Below, piece by piece: positions 13,717-51,777 of a DNA stretch of 64,000 bases. The notes under the pieces were generated by a model. It did not search any database. It saw nothing but the letters and a program-made list of their open reading frames with translations, and was not told where the DNA came from. Position 1 is the stretch's first letter, and every line of letters begins with the position of its first letter. The stretch is from Qipengyuania profundimaris (GTDB lineage: Bacteria; Pseudomonadota; Alphaproteobacteria; Sphingomonadales; Sphingomonadaceae): assembly GCF_030717945.1 (NCBI RefSeq), contig NZ_JAVAIM010000001.1:867131-931130 (forward strand), read 5' to 3'. Both the position numbers and the translations under genes were made by a program.

Positions 13717-14943
13717 GTGTCCACTGGCGTCCACCTAGTTTTTCATGGAAATTTCATGGACGGTGCGACCCAGATGACCGATCTAAGTAAGCTTGGACAT
13801 CGCGAAGCCTTGCGACCTCGCAAGGGCGATGAACCCCATTGGCAACGCCTAAGGCCGGGTTGTTTCTTGGGCTACCGGCCAGCTATGGCGGGAGGAGCCG
13901 GCAATTGGCTTGTCCGTGTCTACGAGCCGGAGAAGCGGAAATACGTTCGCAAGGCCTTGGGTTCCTATCCAGCATCGGCGCGAAATGAGGTTTTCGCAGC
14001 TGCAAAAAAGGATGCCGAAGCGTGGGCGGCTGAGGTGGACTGTGGCGGTGCCCTGCCTTCTGATATCGTTACCGTAAAGGATGCATGTGAGGCCTACCTA
14101 AAGGTCAAACCTGGGACGATTGCCGCGGGAGTGTTCCGGCGTCATGTGTATGATGATCCTATTTCTAGCCAAAAATTAGACAAGCTGCGACGCCACCACT
14201 TAGAAGCGTGGAGGGCGCGTTTAGAAGCTGCTCCGGCCCTGCTGAGCAGAAGCAAGAAGGGTCCAGCAGTAACAAAGGTCCGCGCGCCGAGTACCATCAA
14301 CCGAGATATGGTGCCCGTTCGAGCTGCGCTAAATCGTGTGCTGCCACATGGCCGACCAAACTCAGACGCAGCGTGGCAAGAAGCCCTCCGACCCATTCAA
14401 GGGGCGGACTCACGACGCACAACTTACCTCAACCGTGATGAGCGAGAGCTGTTGATAAACGCGATGCCCGAAGACGCTGGCAGGTTCTTTAAAGCGATGT
14501 GCGTTCTGCCTCTTAGACCGGGTGCTGTTGCTAGTCTCAATACTGGCGATTTTGAGCCACGTACCCGCACCCTGATGGTTCTTAAGGACAAAGCAAAGCC
14601 CAAGCGCCAAATCACGGTCCCCCCTAGCATTTCGGACTATCTGGCAGAACAGGTCGAAGGAAAGCGAGCCGACGAAGCGATTTTCACGCGAAGTGACGGG
14701 GCACGATGGACCAAGGACAAATGGAAGCACCCAATCAAGAATGCAGCCTCGATTGTCGATCTTTCCGAGGAGATAACCGCCTATACCCTGCGGCATTCCG
14801 CGATAACTGATCTAGTGATCGCTGGAGTGCCACTCATGATCATAGCTCAGATTTCAGGAACAAGCGTTACGGTGATCGAGAAGCACTATGCACACCTCAT
14901 CAGAAAAGTTGCCGAGGATGCACTAGATGGATTGGTTTTCTAG
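13717..14943 (+). CDS. int: Tyrosine recombinase (integrase)
   Basis: A site-specific recombinase of up to 408 aa. An N-terminal arm/core-binding region (about 60-220) is followed by a catalytic domain with the first arginine in LPLRPGAV, the LRHSAITDL block carrying R and H, and the tyrosine nucleophile in VIEKHYAH near the C-terminus. The start is uncertain: GTG 13717, ATG 13756 and ATG 13774 are all in frame without a clear ribosome site. AT-rich sequence just upstream carries repeated TTCATGGA motifs (13670, 13742, 13753), possible arm-type binding sites. Directly beside the tRNA-Val fragment, its probable target. Confidence 0.85.
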   Translation: MSTGVHLVFHGNFMDGATQMTDLSKLGHREALRPRKGDEPHWQRLRPGCFLGYRPAMAGGAGNWLVRVYEPEKRKYVRKALGSYPASARNEVFAAAKKDAEAWAAEVDCGGALPSDIVTVKDACEAYLKVKPGTIAAGVFRRHVYDDPISSQKLDKLRRHHLEAWRARLEAAPALLSRSKKGPAVTKVRAPSTINRDMVPVRAALNRVLPHGRPNSDAAWQEALRPIQGADSRRTTYLNRDERELLINAMPEDAGRFFKAMCVLPLRPGAVASLNTGDFEPRTRTLMVLKDKAKPKRQITVPPSISDYLAEQVEGKRADEAIFTRSDGARWTKDKWKHPIKNAASIVDLSEEITAYTLRHSAITDLVIAGVPLMIIAQISGTSVTVIEKHYAHLIRKVAEDALDGLVF

Positions 14944-18405: not shown

Positions 18406-18419
18406 AGGTAGCGCTACCA
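18406..18419. promoter_or_regulatory. LacI-type operator (copy 1)
   Basis: AGGTAGCGCTACCA, differing in one end base from the perfect palindrome TGGTAGCGCTACCA. It lies between the divergent semialdehyde dehydrogenase and sugar porter genes, 73 and 43 bp from their starts, and could control both. Assigned to the LacI protein encoded at 38923 by shared motif and context. Confidence 0.8.
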
Positions 18420-18461: not shown

Positions 18462-19865
18462 TTGGACAATGCGCATTCCGGCGCCAATATGGCGCTGATC
18501 ACCGCGATCGTGGCCGTTGCCACACTGGGCGGTTTCCTGTTCGGTTTCGATAGCGGCGTCATCAACGGGACGGTGGACGGCTTGCGGATCGCTTTCGATT
18601 CGGACGATGTCGGAACCGGCTTCAATGTCGCCTCCATGCTGCTCGGCTGCGCGGTCGGTGCATTCGTCGCGGGACGTCTGTCGGACATTCTGGGTCGCCG
18701 ACGGACACTGCTGATCGCGGCGGCCTTTTTCGTCATCAGCGCGTATGGGTCCGGGATTGCCGGTTCCTCGACCGAATTCGTGATCTATCGCATCATCGGC
18801 GGTTTCGCGGTCGGCGCAGCGAGCGTTTTGGCGCCTGCCTACATAAGCGAGGTCACTCCGGCGCATCTTCGCGGTCGGCTTTCCAGCTTGCAACAAGTGA
18901 TGATCATCGTCGGCCTGACGGCGGCGTTTTTGTCGAACTATCTGCTCGCCGAATACGCCGGTTCCTCGACCGAGGCGTTCTGGATGGGCTTCGAGGCGTG
19001 GCGCTGGATGTTCTGGATGGAGCTGATCCCGGCGATCATCTTCCTCGTTGCTCTGCTCTTCATCCCCGAAAGCCCGCGCTATCTCGTTACGCGAGGCGAA
19101 GGCGGCCAGGCACGTACCGTGCTCGAGCGCCTGTTCGGCGGCAATGTCGCGGCCCGCAAGGTCAGCGAGATCGAGACCTCGATTTCCAACGATCATGCTC
19201 CGCGCCTGTCCGACCTCGTCGACAAGACGAGCGGGAAGATCCGCACGATCGTCTGGGTGGGCATCGGGCTGGCCGTTTTCCAGCAGCTCGTCGGCATCAA
19301 CGTCGTCTTCTATTATGGCGCGGTTCTGTGGCAGGCGGTCGGCTTCAGCGAATCCGATGCACTCAAGATCAACATCCTGAGCGGTTCGATCTCGATCGGC
19401 TCGGTTATCCTTGCCATCGCCCTGATCGACCGGCTGGGGCGCAAGCCGCTGCTGCTGATCGGCTCGATAGGCATGGCGATCACGCTGGGGATCATGGCCA
19501 TCGCGTTCATGAGCGGCTCGCTTGTCGAAGGAACGCTTGAGCTGTCAGACAATGCCGGCCTCGCGGCGCTAATTGCTGCGAATGTATATGTGGCGTTCTT
19601 CAACTTCAGCTGGGGCCCGGTCATGTGGGTCATGCTGGGCGAGATGTTCCCCAACCAGATCCGCGGGTCCGGCTTGGCGGTGAGCGGATTTGCGCAGTGG
19701 ATCGCAAACTTCGGTATCACGATGACCTTTCCGATTATGCTGGCCGGTATCGGCCTTTCGGGGGCCTATGGTTTCTATGCGATCAGTGCTGCCATTTCGA
19801 TCGTGTTCGTCTGGGTGATGGTCCGCGAAACCAAGGGGCTGGAGCTCGAGGAAATGCAGGGTTAG
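18462..19865 (+). CDS. MFS sugar porter, XylE-like
   Basis: A 467-aa twelve-helix inner-membrane sugar:proton symporter, probably for D-xylose or a related pentose. Sugar-porter signatures are present: GGFLFGFDSGVING, GRLSDILGRRRTL, PAYISEVTPAHLRGR, PESPRYLV, QQLVGINVVFYYG and the C-terminal ETKG. Start is TTG at 18462, preceded by GAGGGGAGAG. First gene of a plus-strand operon with two halogenase-family genes, behind a LacI-type operator. Xylose specificity is inferred from the surrounding pathway. Confidence 0.88.
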   Translation: MDNAHSGANMALITAIVAVATLGGFLFGFDSGVINGTVDGLRIAFDSDDVGTGFNVASMLLGCAVGAFVAGRLSDILGRRRTLLIAAAFFVISAYGSGIAGSSTEFVIYRIIGGFAVGAASVLAPAYISEVTPAHLRGRLSSLQQVMIIVGLTAAFLSNYLLAEYAGSSTEAFWMGFEAWRWMFWMELIPAIIFLVALLFIPESPRYLVTRGEGGQARTVLERLFGGNVAARKVSEIETSISNDHAPRLSDLVDKTSGKIRTIVWVGIGLAVFQQLVGINVVFYYGAVLWQAVGFSESDALKINILSGSISIGSVILAIALIDRLGRKPLLLIGSIGMAITLGIMAIAFMSGSLVEGTLELSDNAGLAALIAANVYVAFFNFSWGPVMWVMLGEMFPNQIRGSGLAVSGFAQWIANFGITMTFPIMLAGIGLSGAYGFYAISAAISIVFVWVMVRETKGLELEEMQG

Positions 19866-19876
19866 GCCCTGTCCGT

Positions 19877-21409
19877 ATGAGCGAAGAAATGCCCGCAGGC
19901 CGCAGGAAAGTCCGCGTCGTCGTTCTCGGCGGCGGCACGGCGGGCTGGATGACGGCGGCGGGCATCGCGAAACTGCTGCCCGATCTTGCCGATGTCGCGC
20001 TCGTCGAGAGCGAGGACATCGGCATCGTCGGCGTGGGGGAGGCCACGCTGCCGCACATTCGCGGCTTCGTCGAAACGCTCGGCATCGACGAAGCGGCTTT
20101 CATGAAGGCCACCCATGCGACTTACAAGCTGGGCATCGACTTCCGCGATTTCGGGCGTATCGGCGAAAGTTATATCCACCCGTTCGGCTCCTTCGGCGAA
20201 GAGCTGAGGGGGGTCAGCTTCCATCACTACTGGCTCGAATTGCAGCGGCAAGGCCTTGCCCGCCCGCTGGGCGACTATTCGCTCGCCGTGGCCGCCGCGC
20301 AGGCCAACCGGTTTCGCCCACCGGCACAGGATACCAGTCTGGCCTCGACCTATGGCTATGCCTACCAGTTCGACGCGACGCTGTTCGGCCCCTTCATTCG
20401 CGAGTTCGGCCTGTCGATCGGGGTCGAGCGTCACGAAGGCAAGGTCACGTCGCTCGACCGCGATAGCGCGGATGGCGATGTAACTGCATTGGTGCTCGAA
20501 GATGGCCGCCGGATCGAAGGCGACCTGTTCGTGGACTGCTCGGGCTTCCGCTCGCTCCTGCTGGGGCAGGAATTGAAGGAAGAATGGGAGGACTGGACCC
20601 ACTGGCTGCCCTGCGACCGCGCGGCGGCAATGCCATGCAGCCATGTTACCGATGACATCCGACCCTATACCACGGCGACTGCCATGCCGGCCGGGTGGCG
20701 CTGGCAGATCCCGCTGCAGCACCGCATGGGTAATGGGTATGTGTTCTCCAGCGCGCAAATCTCCGAAGAAGAAGCCTGCGAGGCGATTATGGGAGCCGCG
20801 GAGGGTGAACCGCTGGCCGATCCGCGCATACTGCGTTTCCGCCCCGGTCGTCGACGCCATTCCTGGAGCCACAATGTCATCGGCGTGGGCCTGGCGAGCG
20901 GATTCCTCGAACCGCTCGAATCGACCTCTATATACTTGGCGCAAATGGCAATTACCTACCTGATCGAGCTGTTCCCGCAGGACGGCGCGATCGACCCGCG
21001 CGACCGGGCGGAATTCAACCGCCTGGTCGACATGGAATACGATCGCGTCCGCGATTTCCTGATCCTGCACTACCATGCGACCACGCGCGACGATTCCGAA
21101 TTCTGGAACCATGTGCGCACGATGACCGTGCCCGACAGCCTCGCCGATAAGCTGGAACTGTGGCGCAAGGCGGCCCGGATCGAGAAATATTCCGACGGGC
21201 TGTTTTACGATGCCAGCTGGATTGCGGTCTATGTCGGGCAGGGGATGCTGCCGGAACGGCACGATACGCGGCCTGCGCTCGGCAATCCGCAACAGCTTGC
21301 TCAGGCGACGGAGCGCCTTCGCGAAGCAGTCTTGCGGGAGGTCGGGGCCATGCCGAACCATCGCGAGTATTTGCGCGGAGAGGCCGCCCGCCTCGCGGAC
21401 GCGGCATGA
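19877..21409 (+). CDS. Flavin-dependent tryptophan-halogenase-like protein 1
   Basis: A 510-aa FAD-dependent halogenase-family protein. It has the dinucleotide motif GGGTAGW (18-24), the catalytic lysine position K84 (ATYKLGI), the halogenase signature WRWQIP (274-279) and the EPLEST block (345-350) holding the conserved glutamate. Members of this family linked to TonB receptors are common in sphingomonads and Caulobacter, but their substrates are largely unknown; tryptophan is only the family label. It starts 11 bp after the sugar porter stop and overlaps the next gene by 4 bp, so it is cotranscribed with a xylose-regulon transporter. A partner flavin reductase is not in the window. Confidence 0.87.
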   Translation: MSEEMPAGRRKVRVVVLGGGTAGWMTAAGIAKLLPDLADVALVESEDIGIVGVGEATLPHIRGFVETLGIDEAAFMKATHATYKLGIDFRDFGRIGESYIHPFGSFGEELRGVSFHHYWLELQRQGLARPLGDYSLAVAAAQANRFRPPAQDTSLASTYGYAYQFDATLFGPFIREFGLSIGVERHEGKVTSLDRDSADGDVTALVLEDGRRIEGDLFVDCSGFRSLLLGQELKEEWEDWTHWLPCDRAAAMPCSHVTDDIRPYTTATAMPAGWRWQIPLQHRMGNGYVFSSAQISEEEACEAIMGAAEGEPLADPRILRFRPGRRRHSWSHNVIGVGLASGFLEPLESTSIYLAQMAITYLIELFPQDGAIDPRDRAEFNRLVDMEYDRVRDFLILHYHATTRDDSEFWNHVRTMTVPDSLADKLELWRKAARIEKYSDGLFYDASWIAVYVGQGMLPERHDTRPALGNPQQLAQATERLREAVLREVGAMPNHREYLRGEAARLADAA

Positions 21410-22881
21410 GCGTGCCGCGTGACCCGTGTCGCCGCATCGTCGTCGTCGGTGGCGGGCAGGTCGGCATCCTCGCCGCCGCCGCGCTGCGCCAGGCCATGCC
21501 GGTCAGCCAGGTCGTGCTGGTGGGGCAGCAGCCGAATCCCGCTTCCTTCGCGGATTTCGCGCCGACGTCCCTGCCGAATTCCACCTCGATGCATGAGCGG
21601 CTGGGCCTGGAGGAGAGCGAGATAGTCCTGAAGGCAGGTGGCAGCTATCGGCTGGTTACGCGGTTTCAGGGATGGAGCGCCGCGGGCGAAGAGGGCCTCT
21701 TTTCCTATGGCGAAACGCTCGACCCGACGCTCAAGACCGCTTTCTCGCGCGAATGGGGCGCGACACGGCAGCTGGGCCGCACCGACCGGCGGCAGGGCTC
21801 GATCGCGCAAGTGCTGGCCGAAGCAGGCCGCTTCGCACCACCACCGCCCGACCAGCAGACGCCGCTGTCGGAGGTCGATTATGCGCTGCGCTGGAACCCG
21901 GCCGCCTATCGCGACCTGCTGATCGAGCGCGCGCAGGCATTGGGCGTCGACTACATCGAAGGTCAGATCGAGGCTGTCGAGGTCGGCGAGGGCGCATCGA
22001 TTGGGGCGATCCGGCTGGCCGGTCAGGGCCGGGTCGAGGCAGATCTGTTCGTCGATTGCAGCGGACCGGCCGCCACCCTGTCCGCCTCGCATCCCGATTT
22101 CGCCCTGATCGACTGGTCGGACACTTTGCCAACACGCATGGTATATGTCGGACGGCCTACCGATACGGTAATTGCTCTCGAAGACCGTGTTTCGCTGGTG
22201 GACACGGGTTGGGTGACGCAAGTTGCGGGCCGCGACGGTCTCCATACGATGCTGGGAACGGGCGAAGGCGTCGATCGCGACGCGGCGCTAGCGACACTTG
22301 GTGCGCCGGCACTGGCTGCGATCAATCTGAGTTCCGGGAGAATTGCCGAACCCTGGCTCGGCAACGTGATCGCGATCGGCGATGCCTGTGCGCGTTTCGA
22401 GCCTGTCGGTCCCTATCATCTCGACCTGGCGCACCGCCAAATCGAGTTGTTGCTGGAAATGCTGCCCGGTAAGCATATCGAACCCCTAGAACGTGACGAG
22501 TACAACCGCCGGTCGATCATGATGATGGAGGCGGTGCACGAAACGCTGGCAATCCATTTCGCCGCGACGCGCGCCCAGACGATTTTCGGCAAGCGACCGC
22601 TGCCGGGCCGTCTGGCGGACGAGCTCGATCAGTTCCGGCGTCGCGGTCGCATCCTGTTCCGCGAAGAAGACCCGCTGTTGGCGCAGGAGCGTTTCGCGCT
22701 GCTGGTCGCGCTGGGTTTCACGCCCGGTCTCCCGCCTGCGGCGCATAACGCTGATGCCGCCGTGGAAGAGCAAGCCCACCGCGACTTCGCTGCTCGGGCG
22801 CAAGCGGCAATCGATTTTGCGCCGCCCTATGCACAATGGCTCGCTTCGGTCAGCCAGCAGTCCCCAATGCGCGCCGGATAA
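21406..22881 (+). CDS. Degenerate halogenase paralogue
   Basis: A 491-aa protein related to the flavin-dependent halogenases but without their active-site markers. The FAD loop GGGQVG (15-20) and FVDCSG are kept. The catalytic lysine position is arginine (R82 in GSYRLVTR), the WxWxIP signature is absent, and the EPLEST block is replaced by FEPVGPYHLDL. The frame is intact, so it is a maintained but probably non-halogenating protein: perhaps a flavin monooxygenase, partner subunit or binding protein. ATG overlaps the preceding stop by 4 bp. Its last 32 bp overlap the convergent cupin gene. Confidence 0.78.
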   Translation: MSVPRDPCRRIVVVGGGQVGILAAAALRQAMPVSQVVLVGQQPNPASFADFAPTSLPNSTSMHERLGLEESEIVLKAGGSYRLVTRFQGWSAAGEEGLFSYGETLDPTLKTAFSREWGATRQLGRTDRRQGSIAQVLAEAGRFAPPPPDQQTPLSEVDYALRWNPAAYRDLLIERAQALGVDYIEGQIEAVEVGEGASIGAIRLAGQGRVEADLFVDCSGPAATLSASHPDFALIDWSDTLPTRMVYVGRPTDTVIALEDRVSLVDTGWVTQVAGRDGLHTMLGTGEGVDRDAALATLGAPALAAINLSSGRIAEPWLGNVIAIGDACARFEPVGPYHLDLAHRQIELLLEMLPGKHIEPLERDEYNRRSIMMMEAVHETLAIHFAATRAQTIFGKRPLPGRLADELDQFRRRGRILFREEDPLLAQERFALLVALGFTPGLPPAAHNADAAVEEQAHRDFAARAQAAIDFAPPYAQWLASVSQQSPMRAG

Positions 22882-23875
22882 GCCCGCGCATTTGAGCGAA
22901 CAGTTCCGGATTTGGCGGTCCGAGAATGCCTTTTGCCTGACCGGGCAAATGGGCTGCAGGATCGCCGGATCGCTCGAAAACATAATAGTCCAGCATCTCG
23001 CGCCAAACTGCGCGCTGGTCCGCCGGTAAATGCTTGAAGGCGAGCATGGCGTGTAGCAACGCATCATAGGGGCTGCCGACCCCGTCCGGCTTGCCCGGCG
23101 CCCACCAGTAATTGACGAGGATGCTCACCGGCTCGAGCGATTCGACGCTGTGCCACCAACCATAGGGGATGTAGATCGCATCGCCCGGCTCGAGCGTCGC
23201 GACCTCCGCCTCGCTCCAGGCATCGGCAAAGCGTGGAAACTCTTCGAGATCCGGTTCGGCGAGATCGACCATGCTCACCGGCGTCCCGGCAGGCGTCAGT
23301 TCGAAGGGGCCCGGATAAAGATCCGCGGTTCGCTGCGGGGGAAACAGCGTAAAGCGCCGCCGCCCCGCTACGCAACAGGCGACATTCTCCTTCGCATCGT
23401 AATGCGGCGCGACGCGGATGCGGTTGCCGATCCAGATGCGCGGCGCGACATCGGGGAGAAGCGCGAGCACGTTCTCCCGCGCGAAAGGCGGGGCAAGTGC
23501 CTCTACACTCTCCGACTGCACGGCCATTGCGGGCGGTGCATCGATCGTTTTCGCTTTCAGGAGATCGCCGAGAAATGCTGGTAAGGGCCCGCTCGCCTTG
23601 ACGAAGTTGAGCGACCGCAGGTCGTCGGTGTAGAAAAAGCGTCCTCCGGCTCTCGGCGGTGCCGCGATCGCATCGACAGGCCGACTGGCGGAGCGATCGA
23701 TCAAATACTGGCAGATGGCCTCGTCACTTCGCCGCGCCGCCTCGACTGCGGGCCATGACCCGACCAGCCCGCGCAAAATCACGGGGCGTGTTGCCGAGCG
23801 GATGTCTTCGAAAGCTTCGCGAGTGACTGGCGCTTCGATCTCGGGGATCGGCGCGGGCGCTGGCAGTTCGGTCAT
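22850..23875 (-). CDS. JmjC/cupin_8-type putative dioxygenase
   Basis: A 341-aa cupin-like protein of the JmjC fold. It has the Fe(II)-binding HxD pair H158/D160 (VAPHYDAKEN) and a distal histidine H242 (GWWHSVES), with GRRRFTLFPP and LEPGDAIYIP typical of factor-inhibiting-HIF-like 2-oxoglutarate oxygenases. The substrate is unknown; the family is repeatedly found beside tryptophan-halogenase-like genes and TonB receptors. ATG at 23875 overlaps the stop of the halogenase frame by 4 bp. Last gene of a minus-strand operon with two halogenases. Confidence 0.82.
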   Translation of the reverse strand: MTELPAPAPIPEIEAPVTREAFEDIRSATRPVILRGLVGSWPAVEAARRSDEAICQYLIDRSASRPVDAIAAPPRAGGRFFYTDDLRSLNFVKASGPLPAFLGDLLKAKTIDAPPAMAVQSESVEALAPPFARENVLALLPDVAPRIWIGNRIRVAPHYDAKENVACCVAGRRRFTLFPPQRTADLYPGPFELTPAGTPVSMVDLAEPDLEEFPRFADAWSEAEVATLEPGDAIYIPYGWWHSVESLEPVSILVNYWWAPGKPDGVGSPYDALLHAMLAFKHLPADQRAVWREMLDYYVFERSGDPAAHLPGQAKGILGPPNPELFAQMRGLIRRALGTAG

Positions 23876-25402
23876 GCGATACGGCGTTCTTCGGCTGCCA
23901 TCGCCCCACCACGCTGCTGCAGGAATTGGTCCTGCGTCGGCAATTGCTGCGTCGTCTGTGCGATTACGCCGCGTATATGCGCAAGCCGAGTCAGTGTTTC
24001 TTCGTCGTCCAGCACACGGGCGACGGGATGGTGACTTTGCGGCAGAATGCCCTGTCCCAGCATGACGGCAAGCCAGCTGGCCTCGGTGAAAAGCTCGTTG
24101 TTTTCGCGGAAAATACGGCCCGAGCTGCGGAACATCTCGATCTTTTCGCGTAAACCGTCGGGTGCCTCGAGGTTGCGGCAATAGCGCCAGAACTCCGAGT
24201 CATCGCGCTCCGTGGCGCTGTAATGGAGGACGAGGAAGTCGCGGATATCGGCATATTCGCGATCGGTTTCCGCATTGAACCGCGCGATCTCGACTTCGCA
24301 GAAGCTCTTGTCGGGAAACAGCGATAACAGCCGGGCAATCCCCGACTGAACCAGATGGATCGATGTCGATTCCAGTGGCTCGAGAAATCCTGCCGCAAGC
24401 CCCAGCGCGATCACGTTCTTTTCCCAAGCGCGCGCGGTGGCCTGCCTTGAAGCTGAGCTGGTTCGGCTCGGCCAAGGGTTCTCCATCGAGGTTGGCGAGC
24501 AGAAGATCGGTGGCTTTTGCGCGATCCATATGCTCGGAGGCGAAGACATGGCCGTTGCCGAGCCGGTGCTGGAGCGGAATGCGCCATTGCCATCCTGCAG
24601 CGCGCGCTGTGGATCGGGTCAGAGGCTCGTTTCTGCCGCCGAGGGAACAAGGCACCGCGACGGCACTGTCGCATGGAAGCCAGCGCGACCAGTCTTTAAA
24701 GGGGACGGCGAGCGTTTGCCCCAGCAAAAGCGAGCGAAACCCCGAGCAGTCGATGAACAGTTCGCCCTCGACCTTTTTGCCATGGTCGAGAGAAACGCCG
24801 GTTACGAAGCCGGTCTCGCCGTTTTGATGCACTTCGACCACGCGGCCCTCGATGCGCTCAACGCCGCTGCCCTCCGCCAAACTGCGCAGGAAGCTCGCAT
24901 AGCGGGCGGCATCGAACTGGAAGGCGTAGGCAAGCTTCGCCATCGGGGATTTGGTGTCGGGTCGCGGCCAGTCGAACTTGCCGGCCTTCCCGGCCATTGC
25001 AGCTATCGAATAGGCGTCGACCGGCGTTGTGTCACCGAGCTCGTTACCGCGGATCCAGAAGTGCTGGAATTCGATACCCAGCATGTCGAGGCCGTAGGTT
25101 CCGAAGGGATGGACATAGGAGTGCCCCGGCCGAAGCCAATCTACGAACTCGATCCCCAATTTATACGTCGCGCGGGTTTCCCGCACGAACTGCATCTCGT
25201 CGAGGCCGAGCATGCGGTTGAAACCGATAATTTGCGGGATTGTCGCCTCGCCGACGCCAACCGTGCCGATCGCCTCGCTCTCCACGAGGGTAATCGAGAA
25301 TCCGGGTAGTTTCCCCAAGACATGGGAAAGCGCGGCCGCGGCCATCCAGCCAGAGGACCCGCCGCCGACAATGACGACTTTCGCAACCGGGCCGGCAGTC
25401 AC
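23872..25402 (-). pseudogene. Tryptophan-halogenase-like gene 2, frameshifted
   Basis: A halogenase-family gene broken by one frameshift. Frame one (from 25402) encodes the FAD loop GGGSSGW, the lysine motif ATYKLGIEF, WQWRIP and continues to about residue 323. Homology then moves to another frame (EKNVIALGLAAGFLEPLEST onward) and ends normally at 23872. The break falls in a run of alternating G and C at 24428-24436. Adding 2 bp there restores the motif spacing seen in paralogues and gives a 510-aa protein, the same length as halogenase 1. As written, the product would be 400 aa with a scrambled tail. It overlaps both neighbours by 4 bp. Confidence 0.82.
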
Positions 25403-26970
25403 GAGGCAATGCTCGACAAGGGCGCGGCAAGTGGTTCGTCAAGATGCCACCCGTTCGATTGGCGAATAAAGGCTTCATGCGCTGGCAGCTTTTCCGCCGT
25501 TTCGCGATAGGCGGCACGCATTTGATGCATCGCTGCCGCGACCCGGTCGGGATCGAGCGAATCGGCAATGGCGTCGTAGCTTTCCGGCCAGATGTTTTGG
25601 CCCAGCATGACGGCAATCCAGCTATCGGCGACGAAAAGCTCGGCATTTTCGCGGAAAACGCGGCCATGCAATCGCCAAAGATCAATCTTCCGTGCCAGGC
25701 TTGCCGGTACTTCCATATCGCGCACGTATCGCCAGAATTCGGTGTCGCCGCGTTGCGTGGCCTTGTAGTGCAGAATGATGAAGTCGCGCACGTCTTCGTA
25801 GAGCTCGCGCATGCCGCGATTGTATTCGTCGCGCTCGATGGGGCTGACCGGGTTGTCGGGGAAGAGCGCGAACAGCCGCGCGATACCGTTCTGAATGAGA
25901 TGAATGCTGGTCGATTCGAGTGGCTCGATGAACCCCGACGACAAGCCGAGCGAGACGACATTGTGGCTCCAAGCTTTCTTTCGCATTCCGGTGCAAAAGC
26001 GCAGGGTTCGCGGTTCGGCCAGAGGTTCGCCGTCCAGGTTCGCCATGAGAATCTCCCGCGCCTCGTCCTCTTGCATATAGCCGCTGGAAAACACGTGACC
26101 GTTACCGGTTCGGTGTTGGAGCGGGATGCGCCATTGCCACCCGGCGCCATGCGCGGTCGAGCGCGTGAAGGGGGGCGGTGTTCCTACATTCCGTGACGGG
26201 ACTGCAATGGCGCGGTCCATCGGCAACCAGTGGCTCCAGTCTTCATAGCCGGCTTCAAGGGTGTCTTCGATCAGAAGGCCACGGAAGCCGGAACAGTCGA
26301 TGAACAGGTCGCCTTCTACTCTTGTATCGTTCTCGAGGACGACAGCTTGGACATCGCCGGATTCTCCATGGCGTTCGACGGTCTCGATCTTGCCCTCGAT
26401 GCGCCTTACACCTCGTTGTTCAGCCATTTTGCGCAGGAAAGCCGCATAGAGGCCGGCATCGAAATGGTAGGCATAGGCGATCTGGTTTACGACCGATTTC
26501 GCCCCCGGCGCCGGTCGCGCGAACTTTCCCGCCATGGCCGCCGCGGTGCTCATGGAATAATCGCCGATCGTGCCAGAGCCTGCACCTCGTGCCTGCTCGC
26601 GCAGGAACAGTTGATGGAAGGCGATACCGTGAAAGGATTGGCCATAGCTGCCGAACGGGTGGAAATAGCGGTCGCCTTGCCTGCCCCAGTTCACGAACTC
26701 GATGCCGAGCTTGTAGGTGCCGCGCGTCGCGCGCAGAAATTCATCTTCGCGAATGTCCAGCATCGCGTTGAAATTTGCGATCGGCGGGATGGTCGCCTCG
26801 CCAACTCCGACGGTCCCGATCGCATCGGATTCGACCAGCGTGATCCTGCGCCGCCCATCGTTGAAGAAGCGCGCCAGCGCCGCAGCAGCCATCCAGCCGG
26901 CGGTGCCGCCGCCCACGATTACGACCCGTTCGATCCGATTTACGTTACCGATACCATTCACCTGTCCCAT
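25399..26970 (-). CDS. Flavin-dependent tryptophan-halogenase-like protein 3
   Basis: An intact 523-aa halogenase-family protein: FAD motif GGGTAGW (20-26), catalytic-lysine motif GTYKLGIEF (K87), WQWRIP signature and EPLESTSIHL block all present. Substrate unknown. First gene of the minus-strand unit halogenase 3 - halogenase 2 (frameshifted) - cupin, divergent from the large TonB receptor across 170 bp that contain a LacI-type operator. Linkage suggests a role tied to polysaccharide uptake or to modification at the cell surface, which is inference. Confidence 0.87.
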   Translation of the reverse strand: MGQVNGIGNVNRIERVVIVGGGTAGWMAAAALARFFNDGRRRITLVESDAIGTVGVGEATIPPIANFNAMLDIREDEFLRATRGTYKLGIEFVNWGRQGDRYFHPFGSYGQSFHGIAFHQLFLREQARGAGSGTIGDYSMSTAAAMAGKFARPAPGAKSVVNQIAYAYHFDAGLYAAFLRKMAEQRGVRRIEGKIETVERHGESGDVQAVVLENDTRVEGDLFIDCSGFRGLLIEDTLEAGYEDWSHWLPMDRAIAVPSRNVGTPPPFTRSTAHGAGWQWRIPLQHRTGNGHVFSSGYMQEDEAREILMANLDGEPLAEPRTLRFCTGMRKKAWSHNVVSLGLSSGFIEPLESTSIHLIQNGIARLFALFPDNPVSPIERDEYNRGMRELYEDVRDFIILHYKATQRGDTEFWRYVRDMEVPASLARKIDLWRLHGRVFRENAELFVADSWIAVMLGQNIWPESYDAIADSLDPDRVAAAMHQMRAAYRETAEKLPAHEAFIRQSNGWHLDEPLAAPLSSIAS

Positions 26971-27110
26971 GGGGTGTCAGTCCTATCGCCTCTCGGAGTT
27001 GTTGGCAATTTGCCACAGTATTTCGGCAATCAGCCCATCTACCCTCTTGCCAAGCCCGACACATCCCGATAACTAAATTGGTCGAGGAAAAGCAAGCTGC
27101 CGCAATATAG

Positions 27111-27124
27111 TGGTAGCGCTAACA
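27111..27124. promoter_or_regulatory. LacI-type operator (copy 2)
   Basis: TGGTAGCGCTAACA, one mismatch to the palindrome. It sits 17 bp before the ATG of the TonB receptor. A possible -35 (TTGGTC, 27078-27083) and -10 (CAATAT, 27103-27108) lie just upstream, so a bound repressor would cover the transcription start. It is 141 bp from the divergent halogenase 3 start. Confidence 0.8.
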
Positions 27125-27140: not shown

Positions 27141-30100
27141 ATGGCCAAGGCGATGTCCAGCCGCGGTATGCGTGCAGACGGACAAGACGTACTCAGAAAA
27201 TCGTTTTTGCGGACCGGGGCTTCGGCTCTTGTGGTGAGCAGTCTGATCTGCAGTTCGGGGGCTTTTGCGCAGGACATCGAGGAAGAGGCCGAGCCGGCCG
27301 AAGACAATGTGATTGTCGTTTCCGGCATCCGGCAGTCGCTGGCCAATGCGCAGGATATCAAGCGCGATGCCGACACGGTTGTCGATGCGATTACCGCCGA
27401 AGACATCGGCGCCCTGCCGGACCGCTCCGTCACCGAGGCGCTGCAGCGTGTCCCCGGTGTCGCGATCAACCGGTTCGCGGGTTCGAACGACCCCGACCAC
27501 TTCTCCGTCGAGGGTTCGGGCGTTGTCGTTCGTGGCCTCAACTTCGTTCGTTCGGAGTTCAATGGCCGCACGGCTTTCGCTGCCGGTGTCGGCGGTCAGG
27601 CGCTGAACTTCGCCGATGTCCCTTCGGAGCTGCTCGGCTCGGTCATCATCAGCAAGAACGCGACCGCCAACATGATCGAAGGCGGCCTTGCCGGCACGGT
27701 CAATCTCAATACGCGCAAGCCGTTCGACAGCAATTCCGACGACCTTAAGATCGCTCTGAGTGCGGAAGCCAATTACGGCGATTTCCGCAAGGAATGGACG
27801 CCGACGTTCTCGGGTTTGCTGAGCAAATCCTGGACCACCGATGCAGGTCGCTTCGGCCTGCTGATCAGCGGCGCCTATTCGCAGATCAAGAGCCGCGCTG
27901 ATGGTTTGCAGATTGCGAACTATCAGACGCGCGATGGCCAACTGGTGGCGATTGCCAATACCGCCGACCGGTTCGTTTGTCGCAATCCGTTGCCGTCGGG
28001 CACCGACACGACCACGCTGCCACCGCCAAATTCGGCCTGCGGCACGGAAGGCGCCGCAGGTGCCGATGGTTTCGCCGATTATGCCGATTATCGCGTTGCG
28101 CCGGTCGGCGGTCAGTTCCGCACCCAGGATTTCAATCGCAAGCGCGACGGTATCAGTGCCGCAGCCCAGTGGGAAAGCCTCGACGAGCGGACGCGGGTAA
28201 CTGCGGAATTCATCCGGTCGCACACCACCAACCGATGGGGTGAATACACCTACGAAACGGCTCCCGATCTTTCCGAATATTCGACCTATCCGATCGGTTG
28301 TCAGCAGAACGCCAACGGCCCGAACGTGATCGACAGCAATGGCGTGATCGATCCGAACGACGAAACGCCGCCGCGTGCCCAGTGCCCTGTCGGTGGGTTC
28401 ACCGACTACGTTTACGACGAAAACGGCCTGTTCCAGTCGGGATACATCGTCGACGCTTCGAACGGCTGGCGCGGCGACCCCGGTACGTCGCCCTTTGTTC
28501 CAATCGGCGGATCCCAGTTTTCACTGGCCCGTCGTCAGGTGCTCGATGAGACGACGAATGATGACTACAGCCTCAACCTCGAACACCAGCTGACCGATCG
28601 GCTGCAGGTCAGGCTCGACGCGCAGTATGCGACGTCGCGCAAGGAAAATCTCGATTTCAGCGTGTTCGGATCGAATTTCGCCGATCAGGAGCTGGATCTC
28701 ACCGGAGACTATCCGGTCATCATACCGCATCGTCCCCAATTCCTCGGCTATACCTGGTCGGCGCCGTCGGAAGCCTTGGCGAATGCGGACGATGCGCAAT
28801 ATTTCAGCGATCCGCGCTTCCAGTTCTGGCGTGCCGCGATGGACCACGCCGAGGATAGCGAAGGCGACCAGTTCGCCTTTGCAAACGACTGGGCGTATGA
28901 TTTCGACGAAGATTCGTTCATCCGTCGGGCACGTTTCGGCGGGCGTTTCCAGACCCGCGACCAGACGGTTCGCTACACCACCTATAACTGGGGTATGCTC
29001 AGCGAGACCTGGTCCGGTAGTCGCCCCGTCAATTTCGCGGATACGCCGGAAGGTGCTTCGGAACGATACGAATTCCCGAACTTCTTCCGCGGGGAAGTCC
29101 CCGGCCCTCCGGGTGCCTTCTACTACAGCGGCGACCTGATCGACGATTATCAAGGTTCGGTCGACTTCTTGCGATCGGTTCAGGACCGGGCAATCGAACT
29201 CGGCGCTGCTCCGACGTGGAATCCGCTGGCCGGCCGTGACGGTGCAATCGACGGTACGCCCTATCTGCCTTCCGACATCCAGACGGTTAAGCAGGACGAT
29301 TACGCGGCCTACCTCATGCTCGAGTTTGGCAGCGACAACCTGTTCGGCAATCTGCGGATGTCGGGCAATGTGGGTGTTCGGTACGTCAAGTCGGACATCA
29401 AGTCGGCGACCTTCCGGACCGCAGGCACGCGAGACGGCCTCGGTATCGCGCAAGACTTCGATGTGCGATGCGCTCCGCGTGCGCGACCCGAGGCTGCAGG
29501 TGGCGGTACCGCTATTCCTGGCGGTATCTGCAACCGAGGTCAGGAATTCTACGAAGGATTGCAGAATTTCGCCGACGGTGTGTTCATCTTCAACCAGGTC
29601 AATAACGAGTATGATTACTGGTTGCCCAGTGCCAACCTGCGCTTCGGAATTACCGATGATCTGATCCTGCGCCTCGCCGGATCGAAGGTGATGACGCGCC
29701 CCGAGAACAGCTACATCCGCAACTACTTCACGGCCAGCATCGACAATTCGGGCAACTTCACCGGAACGGCGGGTGCGCCCGATCTGCTTCCGGCGACAGC
29801 CTGGCAGTTCGATGCAAGTCTGGAATGGTACTTCGCCAGGGTCGGATCGTTGACGTTGAACGGCTTCTACAAGTCGGTCGAAAACTTCTTCTTCCAGTCC
29901 GTCCGTACGGAAACGATCACGAATGCCAGCGGGGAATCGCGCGATATTACCATTCGCGGCCCTGCCAACTTCGATGGCACCGGCAAGATCAAGGGCTTCG
30001 AGGTCGCATACCAGCAGACCTACGAGTTCCTCCCGGCGCCGCTCGATGGATTGGGAATGCAGGCGAACTATACCTACATCGACAGTTCGGGCCTGCCCAA

Positions 30101-30521
30101 TACCTTCCTGAACGGTGGCAACGTTCCGAACGATTCCACCGTTCCGCCCGGCAACTTGCCGTTGGAGCAGTTGTCGAAGCACAATGTGAACGTGGCTGGC
30201 TTTTACGAGAAGGGGCCGATCTCGCTCCGTGCAGCTTACAACTGGCGTTCGCGCTTCCTGCTGACGGCTTCGGACGTGATCTTCCCGTACTACTCGATTT
30301 TCAACGAGCCGACGGGACAGCTGGACGCCTCGCTGTTCATTAATCTCAAGAGCATTTTGGATCTCCCGGGCGATCTTCGGGTGGGCGTCCAGGGTGTGAA
30401 TCTGCTCAACGAGGTGACGAAGACCACGCAGGCGTACACGGGCAATCCGGACGATCTGGCACCGCGGTCCTACTTCATGAATGACCGCCGGTTCTCCTTC
30501 ATCATTCGCGGCAATTTCTAA
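27141..30521 (+). CDS. TonB-dependent receptor, Xanthomonas/Caulobacter type
   Basis: A 1126-aa outer-membrane transporter, probably for xylo-oligosaccharides. Signal peptide (about 1-43, ending SSGAFAQ), TonB-box-like NVIVVSGIRQ, then the plug block DADTVVDAITAEDIGALPD and EALQRVPGV, which is diagnostic of the large carbohydrate-linked TonB-Xanth-Caul class. The barrel ends in the terminal-phenylalanine sequence IIRGNF. A GGGAGGG site precedes the ATG. Monocistronic, behind a LacI-type operator and closed by a very strong terminator. Specificity is inferred from the adjacent GH10, GH67 and GH3 genes. Confidence 0.93.
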   Translation: MAKAMSSRGMRADGQDVLRKSFLRTGASALVVSSLICSSGAFAQDIEEEAEPAEDNVIVVSGIRQSLANAQDIKRDADTVVDAITAEDIGALPDRSVTEALQRVPGVAINRFAGSNDPDHFSVEGSGVVVRGLNFVRSEFNGRTAFAAGVGGQALNFADVPSELLGSVIISKNATANMIEGGLAGTVNLNTRKPFDSNSDDLKIALSAEANYGDFRKEWTPTFSGLLSKSWTTDAGRFGLLISGAYSQIKSRADGLQIANYQTRDGQLVAIANTADRFVCRNPLPSGTDTTTLPPPNSACGTEGAAGADGFADYADYRVAPVGGQFRTQDFNRKRDGISAAAQWESLDERTRVTAEFIRSHTTNRWGEYTYETAPDLSEYSTYPIGCQQNANGPNVIDSNGVIDPNDETPPRAQCPVGGFTDYVYDENGLFQSGYIVDASNGWRGDPGTSPFVPIGGSQFSLARRQVLDETTNDDYSLNLEHQLTDRLQVRLDAQYATSRKENLDFSVFGSNFADQELDLTGDYPVIIPHRPQFLGYTWSAPSEALANADDAQYFSDPRFQFWRAAMDHAEDSEGDQFAFANDWAYDFDEDSFIRRARFGGRFQTRDQTVRYTTYNWGMLSETWSGSRPVNFADTPEGASERYEFPNFFRGEVPGPPGAFYYSGDLIDDYQGSVDFLRSVQDRAIELGAAPTWNPLAGRDGAIDGTPYLPSDIQTVKQDDYAAYLMLEFGSDNLFGNLRMSGNVGVRYVKSDIKSATFRTAGTRDGLGIAQDFDVRCAPRARPEAAGGGTAIPGGICNRGQEFYEGLQNFADGVFIFNQVNNEYDYWLPSANLRFGITDDLILRLAGSKVMTRPENSYIRNYFTASIDNSGNFTGTAGAPDLLPATAWQFDASLEWYFARVGSLTLNGFYKSVENFFFQSVRTETITNASGESRDITIRGPANFDGTGKIKGFEVAYQQTYEFLPAPLDGLGMQANYTYIDSSGLPNTFLNGGNVPNDSTVPPGNLPLEQLSKHNVNVAGFYEKGPISLRAAYNWRSRFLLTASDVIFPYYSIFNEPTGQLDASLFINLKSILDLPGDLRVGVQGVNLLNEVTKTTQAYTGNPDDLAPRSYFMNDRRFSFIIRGNF

Positions 30522-36766: not shown

Positions 36767-36780
36767 TGGTAGCGCTACCA
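36767..36780. promoter_or_regulatory. LacI-type operator (copy 3, perfect palindrome)
   Basis: TGGTAGCGCTACCA, a perfect 14-bp palindrome between the divergent GH3 and GH67 genes. Its last base is the A of the first possible GH67 ATG. It would control both the xylanolytic GH3-GH3-GH10 operon and the GH67-lacI-xylD operon, making the repressor autoregulated. Confidence 0.87.
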
Positions 36781-38891
36781 TGATGAGGGGAAAGAGGCTT
36801 GTCAACAGACTTGCGACGCTGATCGCGATGATACTCGGGTGCCTACTGGCGGACGCATCAGCCAAGGCCGAGGACGGGTACGATTTGTGGCTGCGATATG
36901 CACCGCTGGAAGGCGAGGCGCTCGATCGTATCGCTGGCCTGCATGGGCCTGTCGCGGTGCTAAGCTCCGACGGTCCGGAGGAAGCGAGCGCGACCATGGA
37001 AGCCGCTCGCCGCGAACTGGGCGTAGGCCTAACGCGCCTCTCCCGCAATTCGGCTTCCTCGATGCGGAGCGGAGCCGAAGGCTATGTGAGGCTCGAATGT
37101 CCGGAAAATCGCGGTGATTCCGCTGTAGGATATTCCGTTCGCGCAGATGGCGCGGACATCCGCATTCGCGGAAGCAGCGACCTGGCGTGTCTTTATGGTG
37201 TTTTCGCGTTGCTACGTGAACTGTCGCTCGGGGTGGACCCGGTCCGCATCGACATTGCCTCGGAACCGGCCATGCCGCTGCGCATGCTCAATCACTGGGA
37301 CAATCCGGATGGGCATGTCGAGCGCGGCTATGCCGGGCGCTCGATTTTCGACTGGTGGCATCTGCCCGAGCGGCTCGACCAGCGAATGATTGATTATGCT
37401 CGTGCCAATGCCTCGCTCGGTATCAATGGCGTGGTGGTCAACAACGTCAACGCCCGGGCCTTCATGCTCGAACCGCGGTACATCGCCAAATACAAGCGAT
37501 TGGCCGATGCGTGGCGACCTTACGGTATTCGTCTCTACGTTTCCGTTCGGTTCAGCGCGCCGAAGGATATCGGCGGGCTCGATAGTGCCGATCCGCTCGA
37601 CCCGGAGGTCCGGGCATGGTGGCAGGCGAAGGCCGACGAGTTTTACGCCGCCGTTCCCGATTTCGGCGGCTTCCTCGTCAAGGCGAACAGCGAAGGACAA
37701 CCCGGCCCGCAGGACTATGGGCGTAGCCACGCTGATGGTGCCAATATGCTCGCCGAAGCCATTGGCAATCGGGGTACGGTGATCTGGCGCGCCTTCGTTT
37801 ACTCCGCAGAAGACGAAACCGACCGGGCCAAGCAGGCGTATGGTGAATTCGTGCCGCTTGACGGGCAATTTGCCGACAATGTGATCGTCCAGGTGAAGAA
37901 CGGCCCGATCGACTTCCAACCGCGCGAGCCGTTTCATCCGATGTTCGGCGCGATGCCGAATACAAAGCTGATGTTCGAAGCGCAAATCACGAAGGAATAT
38001 CTCGGCTTCGCGAGCCATTTGGCCTTCCTCGCGCCCTTGTGGGAGGAAGTGCTGGACCAAGAACCCGGTCGCGGCGGAAGGGTTGCCGAGGTCGTCCTTC
38101 CTGCGGGGATGGCAGGCGTGGCGAACACCGGTTCGGATCGCAACTGGAGCGGATCGCATTTCGACCAGGCCAACTGGTACGCCTTCGGTCGCCTCGCCTG
38201 GAATCCCGAACTGCCGAGCGAACAGATCGCACGTGAATGGACCGTCCAGACCTTCACGCGCGAGCCAGAGGCCATCGAAAAGATCGTTCGAATGATGATG
38301 CGGAGTCGCGAAGCCGTGGTCGGCTACATGACTCCGCTCGGCCTGGCGCATCTCATGAATACGGGCCATCACTACGGCCCGGCCCCATGGGTCTGCGACT
38401 TGCCGCGCCCGGAATGGAACCCGTGCTATTATCATCGCGCAGATGCCGACGGCATCGGGTTCGACCGGACGGAAAGCGGGTCGGATGCGCTGTCGCAATA
38501 TGCCGATAGTATAGCCAACCGTTGGGACGATCCGAACACGATCGATCCGCGGTTCCTGCTGTGGTTTCACCACATTGCCTGGACTGCGAAGCGCCCGTCC
38601 GGCCTGACGCTGTGGGAAGAGCTGGTGAGCGAATACGATTGGGGCGTGGCGGAAGTCGACGCCATGGCGCGCGAGTGGGCCGATCTTTCCGATGCCATCG
38701 ACCCGCAGCGCCACCGCGCCGTGACGGAAAGTCTGGCGATCCAACAACGCGAGGCGCGCTGGTGGCGCGATGCCTCGATCGCTTACTGGCAGTCGCTCAA
38801 TGGCTTGCCGCTACCGGAGAACGTAAGACCGCCGGCAGATCCGCTGGAGGCCTACATCGGCCGAACCTTCCCGGAGGCTCCGGGCCAATGA
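36780..38891 (+). CDS. aguA: GH67 alpha-glucuronidase
   Basis: A 703-aa enzyme that removes (4-O-methyl)glucuronic acid from the non-reducing end of xylo-oligosaccharides made by GH10. The N-terminal domain is followed by the TIM-barrel core with the conserved LRMLNHWDN, WWHLPERL and KANSEGQPGPQDYGR blocks (about 168-315). The N-terminus has a signal-like segment (about 10-28) containing a possible lipobox (ILGC). The start is uncertain: ATG 36780 and 36783 overlap the operator and lack a ribosome site, and ATG 36828 is also in frame. First gene of a unit with lacI and xylD. Confidence 0.92.
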   Translation: MMRGKRLVNRLATLIAMILGCLLADASAKAEDGYDLWLRYAPLEGEALDRIAGLHGPVAVLSSDGPEEASATMEAARRELGVGLTRLSRNSASSMRSGAEGYVRLECPENRGDSAVGYSVRADGADIRIRGSSDLACLYGVFALLRELSLGVDPVRIDIASEPAMPLRMLNHWDNPDGHVERGYAGRSIFDWWHLPERLDQRMIDYARANASLGINGVVVNNVNARAFMLEPRYIAKYKRLADAWRPYGIRLYVSVRFSAPKDIGGLDSADPLDPEVRAWWQAKADEFYAAVPDFGGFLVKANSEGQPGPQDYGRSHADGANMLAEAIGNRGTVIWRAFVYSAEDETDRAKQAYGEFVPLDGQFADNVIVQVKNGPIDFQPREPFHPMFGAMPNTKLMFEAQITKEYLGFASHLAFLAPLWEEVLDQEPGRGGRVAEVVLPAGMAGVANTGSDRNWSGSHFDQANWYAFGRLAWNPELPSEQIAREWTVQTFTREPEAIEKIVRMMMRSREAVVGYMTPLGLAHLMNTGHHYGPAPWVCDLPRPEWNPCYYHRADADGIGFDRTESGSDALSQYADSIANRWDDPNTIDPRFLLWFHHIAWTAKRPSGLTLWEELVSEYDWGVAEVDAMAREWADLSDAIDPQRHRAVTESLAIQQREARWWRDASIAYWQSLNGLPLPENVRPPADPLEAYIGRTFPEAPGQ

Positions 38892-50757: not shown

Positions 50758-51777
50758 TCAAGTCGAAGAAAGAACCTGCAAGATGAACCTTCGCATTTGT
50801 TCATCGCGCTCAGGCGAGGCCGGACCATTCACGCCGCGGGCATGCAGCGGCAGATGATCCGCAGCTGTCGCCGACCCGGACCCGAAAACGAAATGGTCGA
50901 ACCAGACCCGCCATGCTTCCTTCTGCGCCTCGCTCTGTTCGCGAATGGCGAGCATGGCGTGTACCAGCGCCAGAAATCCGCCCCCTCGCGATGCGTCGTT
51001 GTGCCAGTAATTGACCAGGATATTGAGGGGCGCGTCGGCCGTGACATGGTGCCACCAGAGGGTCGGGATGTAGATCGCATCGCCAGGTTCGAGATCGGCG
51101 AATTGCCCCTTCGCCTCTGCCGCCTCGTATCTCGGAAAGCGCTGCCGGTCCGGCGCGAGTGGATCGACCATGCTGACAGGCTGCCCCGCCAGCGTGATGT
51201 TGAGCGGACCGACATAGAGATCGGGAGTCGCTTCGGGCGGGAATAACGTAAACCGGCGCCTGCCCAAAGCGACGACCGCGATGTTGTCGGAAAGATCGAA
51301 GTGCGTTGCAACCTGCGTTGCATTGCCCAGCCAGATCCGTGCGACCGCTTCCATGTCGTCTACCAGCGGCAATGGATGTCGTTCGGTGAAGCCCGGCAAG
51401 TGACGCACCGTCTCGGCTGCACCGGCATACATCGCCAGGGGCTCCGACATGAACGCGAGTTCGCGCAAGCGCTCGACGAGATGGGACAGCGAAGCCTGTT
51501 TACGGCTGAAATTGAAACCGCGCATGTCCGGACCGAAGAAGAACCGTCCCTTTTCGCTTGGCGGAGCGATCATGACATCCGTCGGAATTCCGCTATCCAT
51601 CTCCTCGACCGTCTGGAGCGCCGCATTGGCATCCGCCCGACCTGCTTTTACGATCTCCCAATCATCCGCGATCCCCCGCATCACGACAGGCCTGAAAGCC
51701 GGACGGATTTCATCCTCGAAGTGTTGCGCGTCGAAGCGCGCGATTTCGTCAACGGGTCGTATGGCGCACCCGATCAA
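50758..51777 (-). CDS. Second JmjC/cupin_8-type putative dioxygenase
   Basis: A 339-aa paralogue of the cupin gene at 22850. The HxD pair is H159/D161 (VATHFDLSDN) with a distal histidine in WWHHV; GRRRFTLFPP and LEPGDAIYIP are shared almost word for word with the other copy. Probably an Fe(II)/2-oxoglutarate oxygenase of unknown target. It lies between a GH3 and a GH5 gene, overlapping the GH3 by 4 bp, with no halogenase adjacent, so the cupin can be coupled to glycan operons independently. Confidence 0.82.
   Translation of the reverse strand: MIGCAIRPVDEIARFDAQHFEDEIRPAFRPVVMRGIADDWEIVKAGRADANAALQTVEEMDSGIPTDVMIAPPSEKGRFFFGPDMRGFNFSRKQASLSHLVERLRELAFMSEPLAMYAGAAETVRHLPGFTERHPLPLVDDMEAVARIWLGNATQVATHFDLSDNIAVVALGRRRFTLFPPEATPDLYVGPLNITLAGQPVSMVDPLAPDRQRFPRYEAAEAKGQFADLEPGDAIYIPTLWWHHVTADAPLNILVNYWHNDASRGGGFLALVHAMLAIREQSEAQKEAWRVWFDHFVFGSGSATAADHLPLHARGVNGPASPERDEQMRRFILQVLSST

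Follow-up and report, generated by a model that had tools for sequence, protein, structure and literature searches.

The closest described relatives of the genes considered here are flavin-dependent halogenases of the PF04820 family, above all BrvH. In the passages of PMC5945002 drawn on here, BrvH has no activity on tryptophan and brominates free indole slowly in vitro, its catalytic Lys and Glu are aligned with those of RebH, its open active site is likened by the authors to that of MibH, an enzyme for peptide-borne Trp, and its natural substrate is left open; the word 'receptor' is absent from the main text of that paper. A weak relative, QhpG, dihydroxylates peptidyl Trp according to passages of PMC7876137, and in parts of PMC11340318 the transposon mutants of a freshwater Sphingomonas that were screened for colony morphology include one with an insertion in a gene labelled 'tryptophan halogenase', which offers one lead to the function of these halogenases, matched only by gene label. 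The locus analysed here occupies positions 19877-27124 of a 64,000-nucleotide stretch of Qipengyuania profundimaris DNA (the window), where three PF04820 halogenases, one degenerate paralogue and one Cupin_8/JmjC oxygenase-like gene lie between a XylE-like sugar porter and a TonB-dependent receptor of the TonB-Xanth-Caul type. We tentatively read this module as dedicated to the neighbouring outer-membrane sugar receptor, and as perhaps modifying an aromatic side chain of a protein, most plausibly of the receptor itself.

Linkage of halogenases to glycan receptors

The gene order is FDH-A (+), dFDH (+), Cupin_8/JmjC (-), FDH-B (-, frameshifted), FDH-C (-) and, from 27141, the receptor (+); the first-pass annotation had placed three halogenase-like genes, a degenerate paralogue and a JmjC/cupin oxygenase around the receptor, and Pfam (where the PF04820 cut-off is 21 bits) shows both its coordinates and its gene list to be right.

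18406..18419, + strand: LacI-type operator (1 mismatch), preceding the porter/FDH-A/dFDH operon
18486..19865, + strand: sugar porter (major facilitator superfamily, MFS; XylE-like), leading the operon and preceding FDH-A on the same strand
19877..21409, + strand: FDH-A, intact flavin-dependent halogenase (PF04820, 596 bits)
21406..22881, + strand: dFDH, degenerate halogenase-like paralogue (PF04820, 204 bits; stretch 21409-22881 scanned)
22850..23875, - strand: Cupin_8/JmjC oxygenase-like protein (Cupin_8, 213 bits)
23872..25402, - strand: FDH-B, frameshift-split halogenase (PF04820, halves of 417 and 195 bits)
25399..26970, - strand: FDH-C, intact flavin-dependent halogenase (PF04820, 643 bits)
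27111..27124, + strand: exact match to the LacI-type operator, lying between FDH-C and the receptor, which diverge from each other
27141..30521, + strand: TonB-dependent receptor, TonB-Xanth-Caul (TIGR01782, 636 bits, cut-off 310)

The linkage between halogenases and receptors is observed directly, and within the window genome it is complete on the receptor side: exactly three TonB-Xanth-Caul receptors exceed the TIGR01782 cut-off, each adjoins halogenases, and all eight PF04820 matches at E<=1e-30 (seven genes) lie beside them, a ninth and weak match (20 bits) being located elsewhere. The second receptor locus (L027) holds two GH13 genes, GH97, LacI, an MFS porter and DUF6445, and the third (L028) a LacI gene and a divergent halogenase, directly 3' of which stands a flavin reductase gene (Flavin_Reduct, PF01613; L028 13126-13716, -), a likely source of FADH2. 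Across 15 genomes, at least 110 of 137 PF04820 matches have a listed TonB-Xanth-Caul receptor no more than 10 kb away, where about 15 would be expected as the sum of per-genome fractions; the receptor set consists of 150 of 177 matches with candidates scored in part, so that the true count may be higher and the labels 'unlinked' (for receptors) and 'far' (for halogenases) may be wrong in some cases. Ten of these genomes were picked for holding halogenases, which affects gene frequency and not distance to receptors. Nineteen halogenase matches have no listed receptor within 20 kb, and inspection of eight regions covering 11 of them revealed a strong receptor adjoining the gene in three (L232, L233, L235), a weak receptor-like open reading frame (ORF) of 94 bits in one (L234) and no receptor in the remaining four (L220, L236, L237, L238). 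Among 66 close pairs, 50 have the halogenase on the receptor strand and downstream of the receptor, 12 are divergent, two have the halogenase upstream and two are convergent; among 13 genomes of the order (window genome included), halogenases occur in five, always with a receptor, and a receptor alone in two.

A wider sample is provided by 80 loci, the best 80 of 578 confirmed matches and hence biased to close relatives of the query, which we take from the class of each genus to span Alpha-, Beta- and Gammaproteobacteria. A receptor-like gene is present in 73 of them with the wider profile, in 71 cases within 2 kb of the halogenase (a narrower receptor profile gave 65 loci), and the seven loci that have none are all cut by a contig end, two of them holding a receptor-like cluster member. 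Every other neighbour cluster, named from its representatives, is rarer: LacI 30, GH13 23, GH3 14, GH97 14 and Cupin_8 14. As GH13 or GH97 glycosidases occur in 28 loci, xylan-type GH10/43/67 in 11 and both in one, the halogenase-receptor linkage is independent of the glycan and not confined to xylan loci.

Conservation of the module is likewise seen directly. Its closest complete relative, L231, belongs to a different genus of the family and retains LacI, one GH3, GH10, the receptor, FDH-C, an intact FDH-B, Cupin_8, dFDH, FDH-A and the porter in the same relative arrangement; it has neither the GH67 nor the second GH3 found in the window. In Caulobacter vibrioides, a xylan-type locus (L228) combines GH67, three intact halogenases, a shorter dFDH of 374 aa, the receptor, GH10 and GH43. 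At L222 (13352-16958, +), a receptor adjoining a halogenase module is split across two frames.

Enzymes of the module and their setting

Alignment places the catalytic Lys, the Glu and the Trp-x-Trp motif in FDH-A, in FDH-C and, across both halves, in FDH-B. PF04820 thus confirms the three halogenase genes of the first-pass annotation, which, however, lacked the frameshift in FDH-B: the frame 24200-25402 covers profile positions 1-316 and the frame 23872-24549 positions 314-457, with the break near 24430-24450 in a CG-rich stretch, and because both frames match the intact L231 copy at 66% identity, the frameshift has either arisen recently or stems from an error in the assembly. The closest solved structures to FDH-C are 9luq, 6frl (BrvH) and 6y1w, with all of which it aligns ungapped through the lid loop; the lid is the short one of BrvH, and the FDH-C site is predicted to be open beneath it. 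More generally, the catalytic Lys and both Trp of Trp-x-Trp are found in 161 of 161 high-scoring rows (154 distinct), and the Glu in 160.

In dFDH, whose start codon overlaps the FDH-A stop, the alignment replaces the catalytic Lys by Arg and lacks the second Trp of Trp-x-Trp, and on these grounds the protein is not classed as a halogenase. The label 'degenerate' given to it earlier fits the active site, but the gene belongs to conserved clades, mostly without the catalytic lysine: of the 29 low-scoring rows (26 distinct), four retain Lys (likewise four of the distinct ones), 24 have Arg, Ser, Cys or Thr in its place and one has a gap. In a midpoint-rooted tree, for which two of the 29 rows were too short, the low-scoring proteins make up two clades, the first with support 0.88 (22 of them, plus 4 intermediate ones) and the second with 0.97 (5 plus 1); the five are from Gilvimarinus (one gene, represented twice), Marinimicrobium, Glaciecola and Aliiglaciecola. 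In the 15 genomes 11 degenerate genes were counted, and every one directly adjoins an intact halogenase, degenerate meaning below 330 Pfam bits, with the halves of FDH-B and of a split halogenase match in G022 excluded and two degenerate-clade genes just above 330 bits (L220, L221) outside the count. Of seven genes compared with L231, dFDH is the fastest-changing (identity 46%, where FDH-A has 78% and the porter 83%); its nonsynonymous divergence (dN) is 0.54, its synonymous divergence (dS) 2.35, and its codon positions differ by 0.42/0.35/0.64, and since dS is saturated these values give only a hint of constraint.

Oxygenase-like genes accompany the halogenases. The co-occurrence statistics proposed in the first-pass annotation bear out both associations: the halogenase-receptor excess given above and, in 13 genomes, the presence of 17 of 26 Cupin_8 genes within 5 kb of a halogenase, against 0.7 expected; DUF6445 follows with 8 of 17 against 0.5. 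The nearest solved structures to the window Cupin_8 protein are JMJD5, FIH and JMJD7, which are protein hydroxylases; the relationship is remote (E 4e-19), and the H-x-D...H iron-site residues align with JMJD5. DUF6445 (PF20043; for example L048 14829-15599, +) has invariant H134, D136, H226, R244 and T246 in five sequences, a H-x-D...H...R-x-T motif that we take to be a 2-oxoglutarate oxygenase signature, and its profile search returned procollagen lysyl hydroxylase as sole match, a weak one (E 0.15). A TPR protein with a 2OG-FeII_Oxy_5 domain lies near the halogenase in L078. Elsewhere, a Cupin_8 match with one in-frame TAG (G016:C4:187390-188088) stands between a halogenase and a receptor.

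The operator-like sequence TGNTANCGNTANCA is found in the window at up to one mismatch 10 times, against 0.70 expected and with none of 100 shuffles reaching 10. The site of one mismatch at 18406 agrees with the earlier description of a porter-led operon behind a LacI-type operator; further exact matches lie at 36767, 47955 and 54508, sites also precede other xylan genes, and at least three of the 10 matches are intragenic (14061, 20644, 26943). The operator-like sites, the gene order and the active-site residues are all direct observations. The top model for the porter is XylE, yet below its cut-off (379 against 608 bits; NCBIfam).

By Pfam, the module is neighboured by GH10, two GH3 genes, GH67, LacI and an IlvD/EDD-type dehydratase, and farther out in the window by a SASA-type esterase, GH43, GH5, two more GH3 genes and GH31; the features with coordinates are:

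36780-38891, + strand: GH67 of the xylan locus
38923-40050, + strand: LacI-family regulator of the xylan locus
50758..51777, - strand: second Cupin_8 protein, 20 kb from the receptor and adjoining a GH3 gene

This second Cupin_8 gene and that at 22850-23875 are the only strong Cupin_8 matches of the genome. A phage-integrase-family gene (13717-14943, +) lies at the edge of the xylan locus, and comparison with PHROGs gave nothing useful.

Possible targets of the module

Modification of a receptor side chain is tentatively favoured because of the open site of BrvH, likened to that of MibH, the precedent of QhpG, the protein-hydroxylase-like Cupin_8 and the position of the receptor as the one near-constant neighbour. 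In such a scheme, a sugar would relieve LacI repression, so that receptor, porter, glycosidases and modifying enzymes would be produced together, as operators and gene order suggest; the intact halogenases, supplied with FADH2 by a flavin reductase, would oxidise halide and attach the halogen, perhaps bromine, to an aromatic side chain of a protein admitted to the open active site, most likely the cytoplasmic precursor of the receptor before export. The degenerate halogenase might serve as a non-catalytic partner holding substrate or enzyme, and the JmjC/Cupin_8 protein (elsewhere the DUF6445 or TPR-2OG protein) might hydroxylate a residue of the same target. We infer in this way a protein target, its identity with the receptor, the halogen, the order of the steps and any effect on glycan capture. 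A more general proposal, which is doubtful, is that outer-membrane glycan receptors in SusD-less Proteobacteria have protein side chains halogenated and hydroxylated by a dedicated complex of halogenase, dead halogenase and 2-oxoglutarate oxygenase, as a form of receptor maturation that would be the native role of BrvH-type enzymes.

Support for a stable and partner-specific pairing comes from 55 halogenase-receptor pairs of eight genomes and the window genome (G022:C1:40090-45246, a two-segment halogenase, was dropped), whose gene trees agree with rho 0.220, against a maximum of 0.154 in 2000 within-genome permutations, and in which 179 of 335 comparisons give matching nearest partners in another genome, where 54.7 would be expected. 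With the linkage, this supports the part of the first-pass annotation in which the enzymes serve the receptor, while the xylan-borne aromatic group that it offered as a target is not supported. Among receptor residues, the columns S96 and R143 (window numbering), which ranked highest in 106 linked against 60 unlinked receptors, failed in 15 independent pairs. A hidden peptide substrate was also sought among 729 small ORFs within 4 kb of halogenases, and no family occurs in more than three loci, the one that reaches three being confined to Sphingomonas (L035, L036, L063).

Several observations weigh against modification of the receptor. Across the 15 phylogenetically independent pairs, halogenase linkage is tracked by no receptor column: the best one scores 6:0, a score that is reached in the opposite direction as well. 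This null result must count against a single conserved site, although the test is weak if receptors differ in their modified sites or if those with no halogenase beside them are modified in trans. Taken overall, receptors with a linked halogenase have a greater length and a slightly higher Trp content, a difference that is gone in the same pairs. Co-inheritance is not proof of contact, because loci that move as a block also co-inherit, and the comparison had no neutral-neighbour control. Moreover, for 103 of the 174 listed receptors the nearest listed halogenase, if any, is more than 10 kb away, Cupin_8 is found in only 14 (clusters) or 15 (profile) of the 80 loci, and the halogenases would need to meet an exported protein inside the cytoplasm. 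A protein target of Cupin_8 is itself not certain, because C2orf60, a tRNA-modifying enzyme, is among its weaker structural relatives. Finally, BrvH does halogenate free indole, albeit slowly (passages of PMC5945002).

That last property is also an argument for a rather unlikely alternative, in which the module makes a small halogenated aromatic, such as a derivative of indole or tryptophan, that would act as a signal or poison competitors once a sugar is encountered, the receptor being only a co-regulated neighbour. PF04820 enzymes classically serve natural products, and BrvH accepts free indole and not tryptophan; its slow turnover, however, and the partner-specific co-inheritance with the receptor count against such a product, a protein-hydroxylase-like Cupin_8 would be unexpected, and among those neighbour clusters of the 80 loci that were named no biosynthetic family is prominent, receptor, LacI, glycosidases and MFS porters being the common ones. 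Somewhat less probable, and unlikely, is the modification of another exported or surface protein, which would agree with the lack of a receptor residue tracking linkage, whereas no other protein cluster occurs in most of the 80 loci and the small ORFs near halogenases include no conserved family.

The chemistry itself could differ, the flavoproteins acting on a protein aromatic residue as monooxygenases in the manner of QhpG. The dihydroxylation of peptidyl Trp by QhpG gives this a precedent, and NCBIfam models of QhpG and LodB match the module flavoproteins, but weakly and far under their curated cut-offs; against it stand the near-universal halogenase residues of the high-scoring rows and the in vitro halogenation by the solved relative BrvH, which make it distinctly improbable. 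Least probable of all, and very unlikely, is the modification of an aromatic group on the glycan or imported with it, ferulate-like or lignin-like. The window locus is a xylan locus and xylans can bear ferulate, but the same enzymes stand beside receptors in alpha-glucan loci (the 28 with GH13 or GH97), including the GH13/GH97 locus of the window genome, and the Pfam matches in the window stretches scanned include none named feruloyl esterase, with one SASA-type carbohydrate esterase; in addition, the enzymes look cytoplasmic, with a Rossmann motif within about 20 residues of the start.

Comparison with known systems

The halogenase, receptor and Cupin_8 families are already known; this analysis adds counts for a linkage that holds whatever the glycan, the findings that the degenerate partner is conserved and that two oxygenase families cluster with the halogenases, and a testable hypothesis on the native substrate. 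Work on related Xanthomonas enzymes and older notes of a halogenase-TonB linkage reportedly exist, and for this reason the linkage is not claimed as unpublished. In the open-licence PMC literature (titles, abstract openings and passages; subscription journals lie outside this scope) no tie of these halogenases to glycan receptors was found, and none appears in PMC11897816 or in the passages drawn from PMC5945002, PMC8269204, PMC11337851, PMC11340318 and PMC7876137.

The tie to sugar receptors over several proteobacterial groups shows where the native substrate of BrvH-type enzymes may be sought, and Caulobacter vibrioides, with the module in a xylan-type locus, is an organism in which the hypothesis can be tested. 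Modification of the receptor would represent a novel type of receptor maturation; otherwise, some halogenated product would be made in step with sugar foraging.

In comparison with described enzymes, BrvH (Brevundimonas BAL3, PDB 6FRL; PF04820) matches FDH-C at E 1.3e-152 over 491 residues and has in common with it the catalytic Lys and Glu and the short lid loop; in the passages available of PMC5945002 BrvH is studied alone, with a second halogenase gene noted beside it, and differs from RebH, whose long lid loop closes over free Trp. By sequence, the tryptophan halogenases RebH and PrnA belong to the same family as FDH-C. MibH takes a lanthipeptide as substrate, and its likeness derives from the site comparison by the BrvH authors; QhpG and LodB are flavoproteins required for the modification of protein-bound Trp (passages of PMC7876137), and JMJD5, FIH and JMJD7 are remote counterparts of the window Cupin_8. 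At the level of the locus, the window resembles a SusC/SusD system in joining a TonB-dependent receptor, glycosidases and a regulator, and differs from it in its LacI control, in the lack of a SusD domain among the 25 distinct window stretches scanned with Pfam, as stated in the first-pass annotation, and in the halogenase module beside the receptor.

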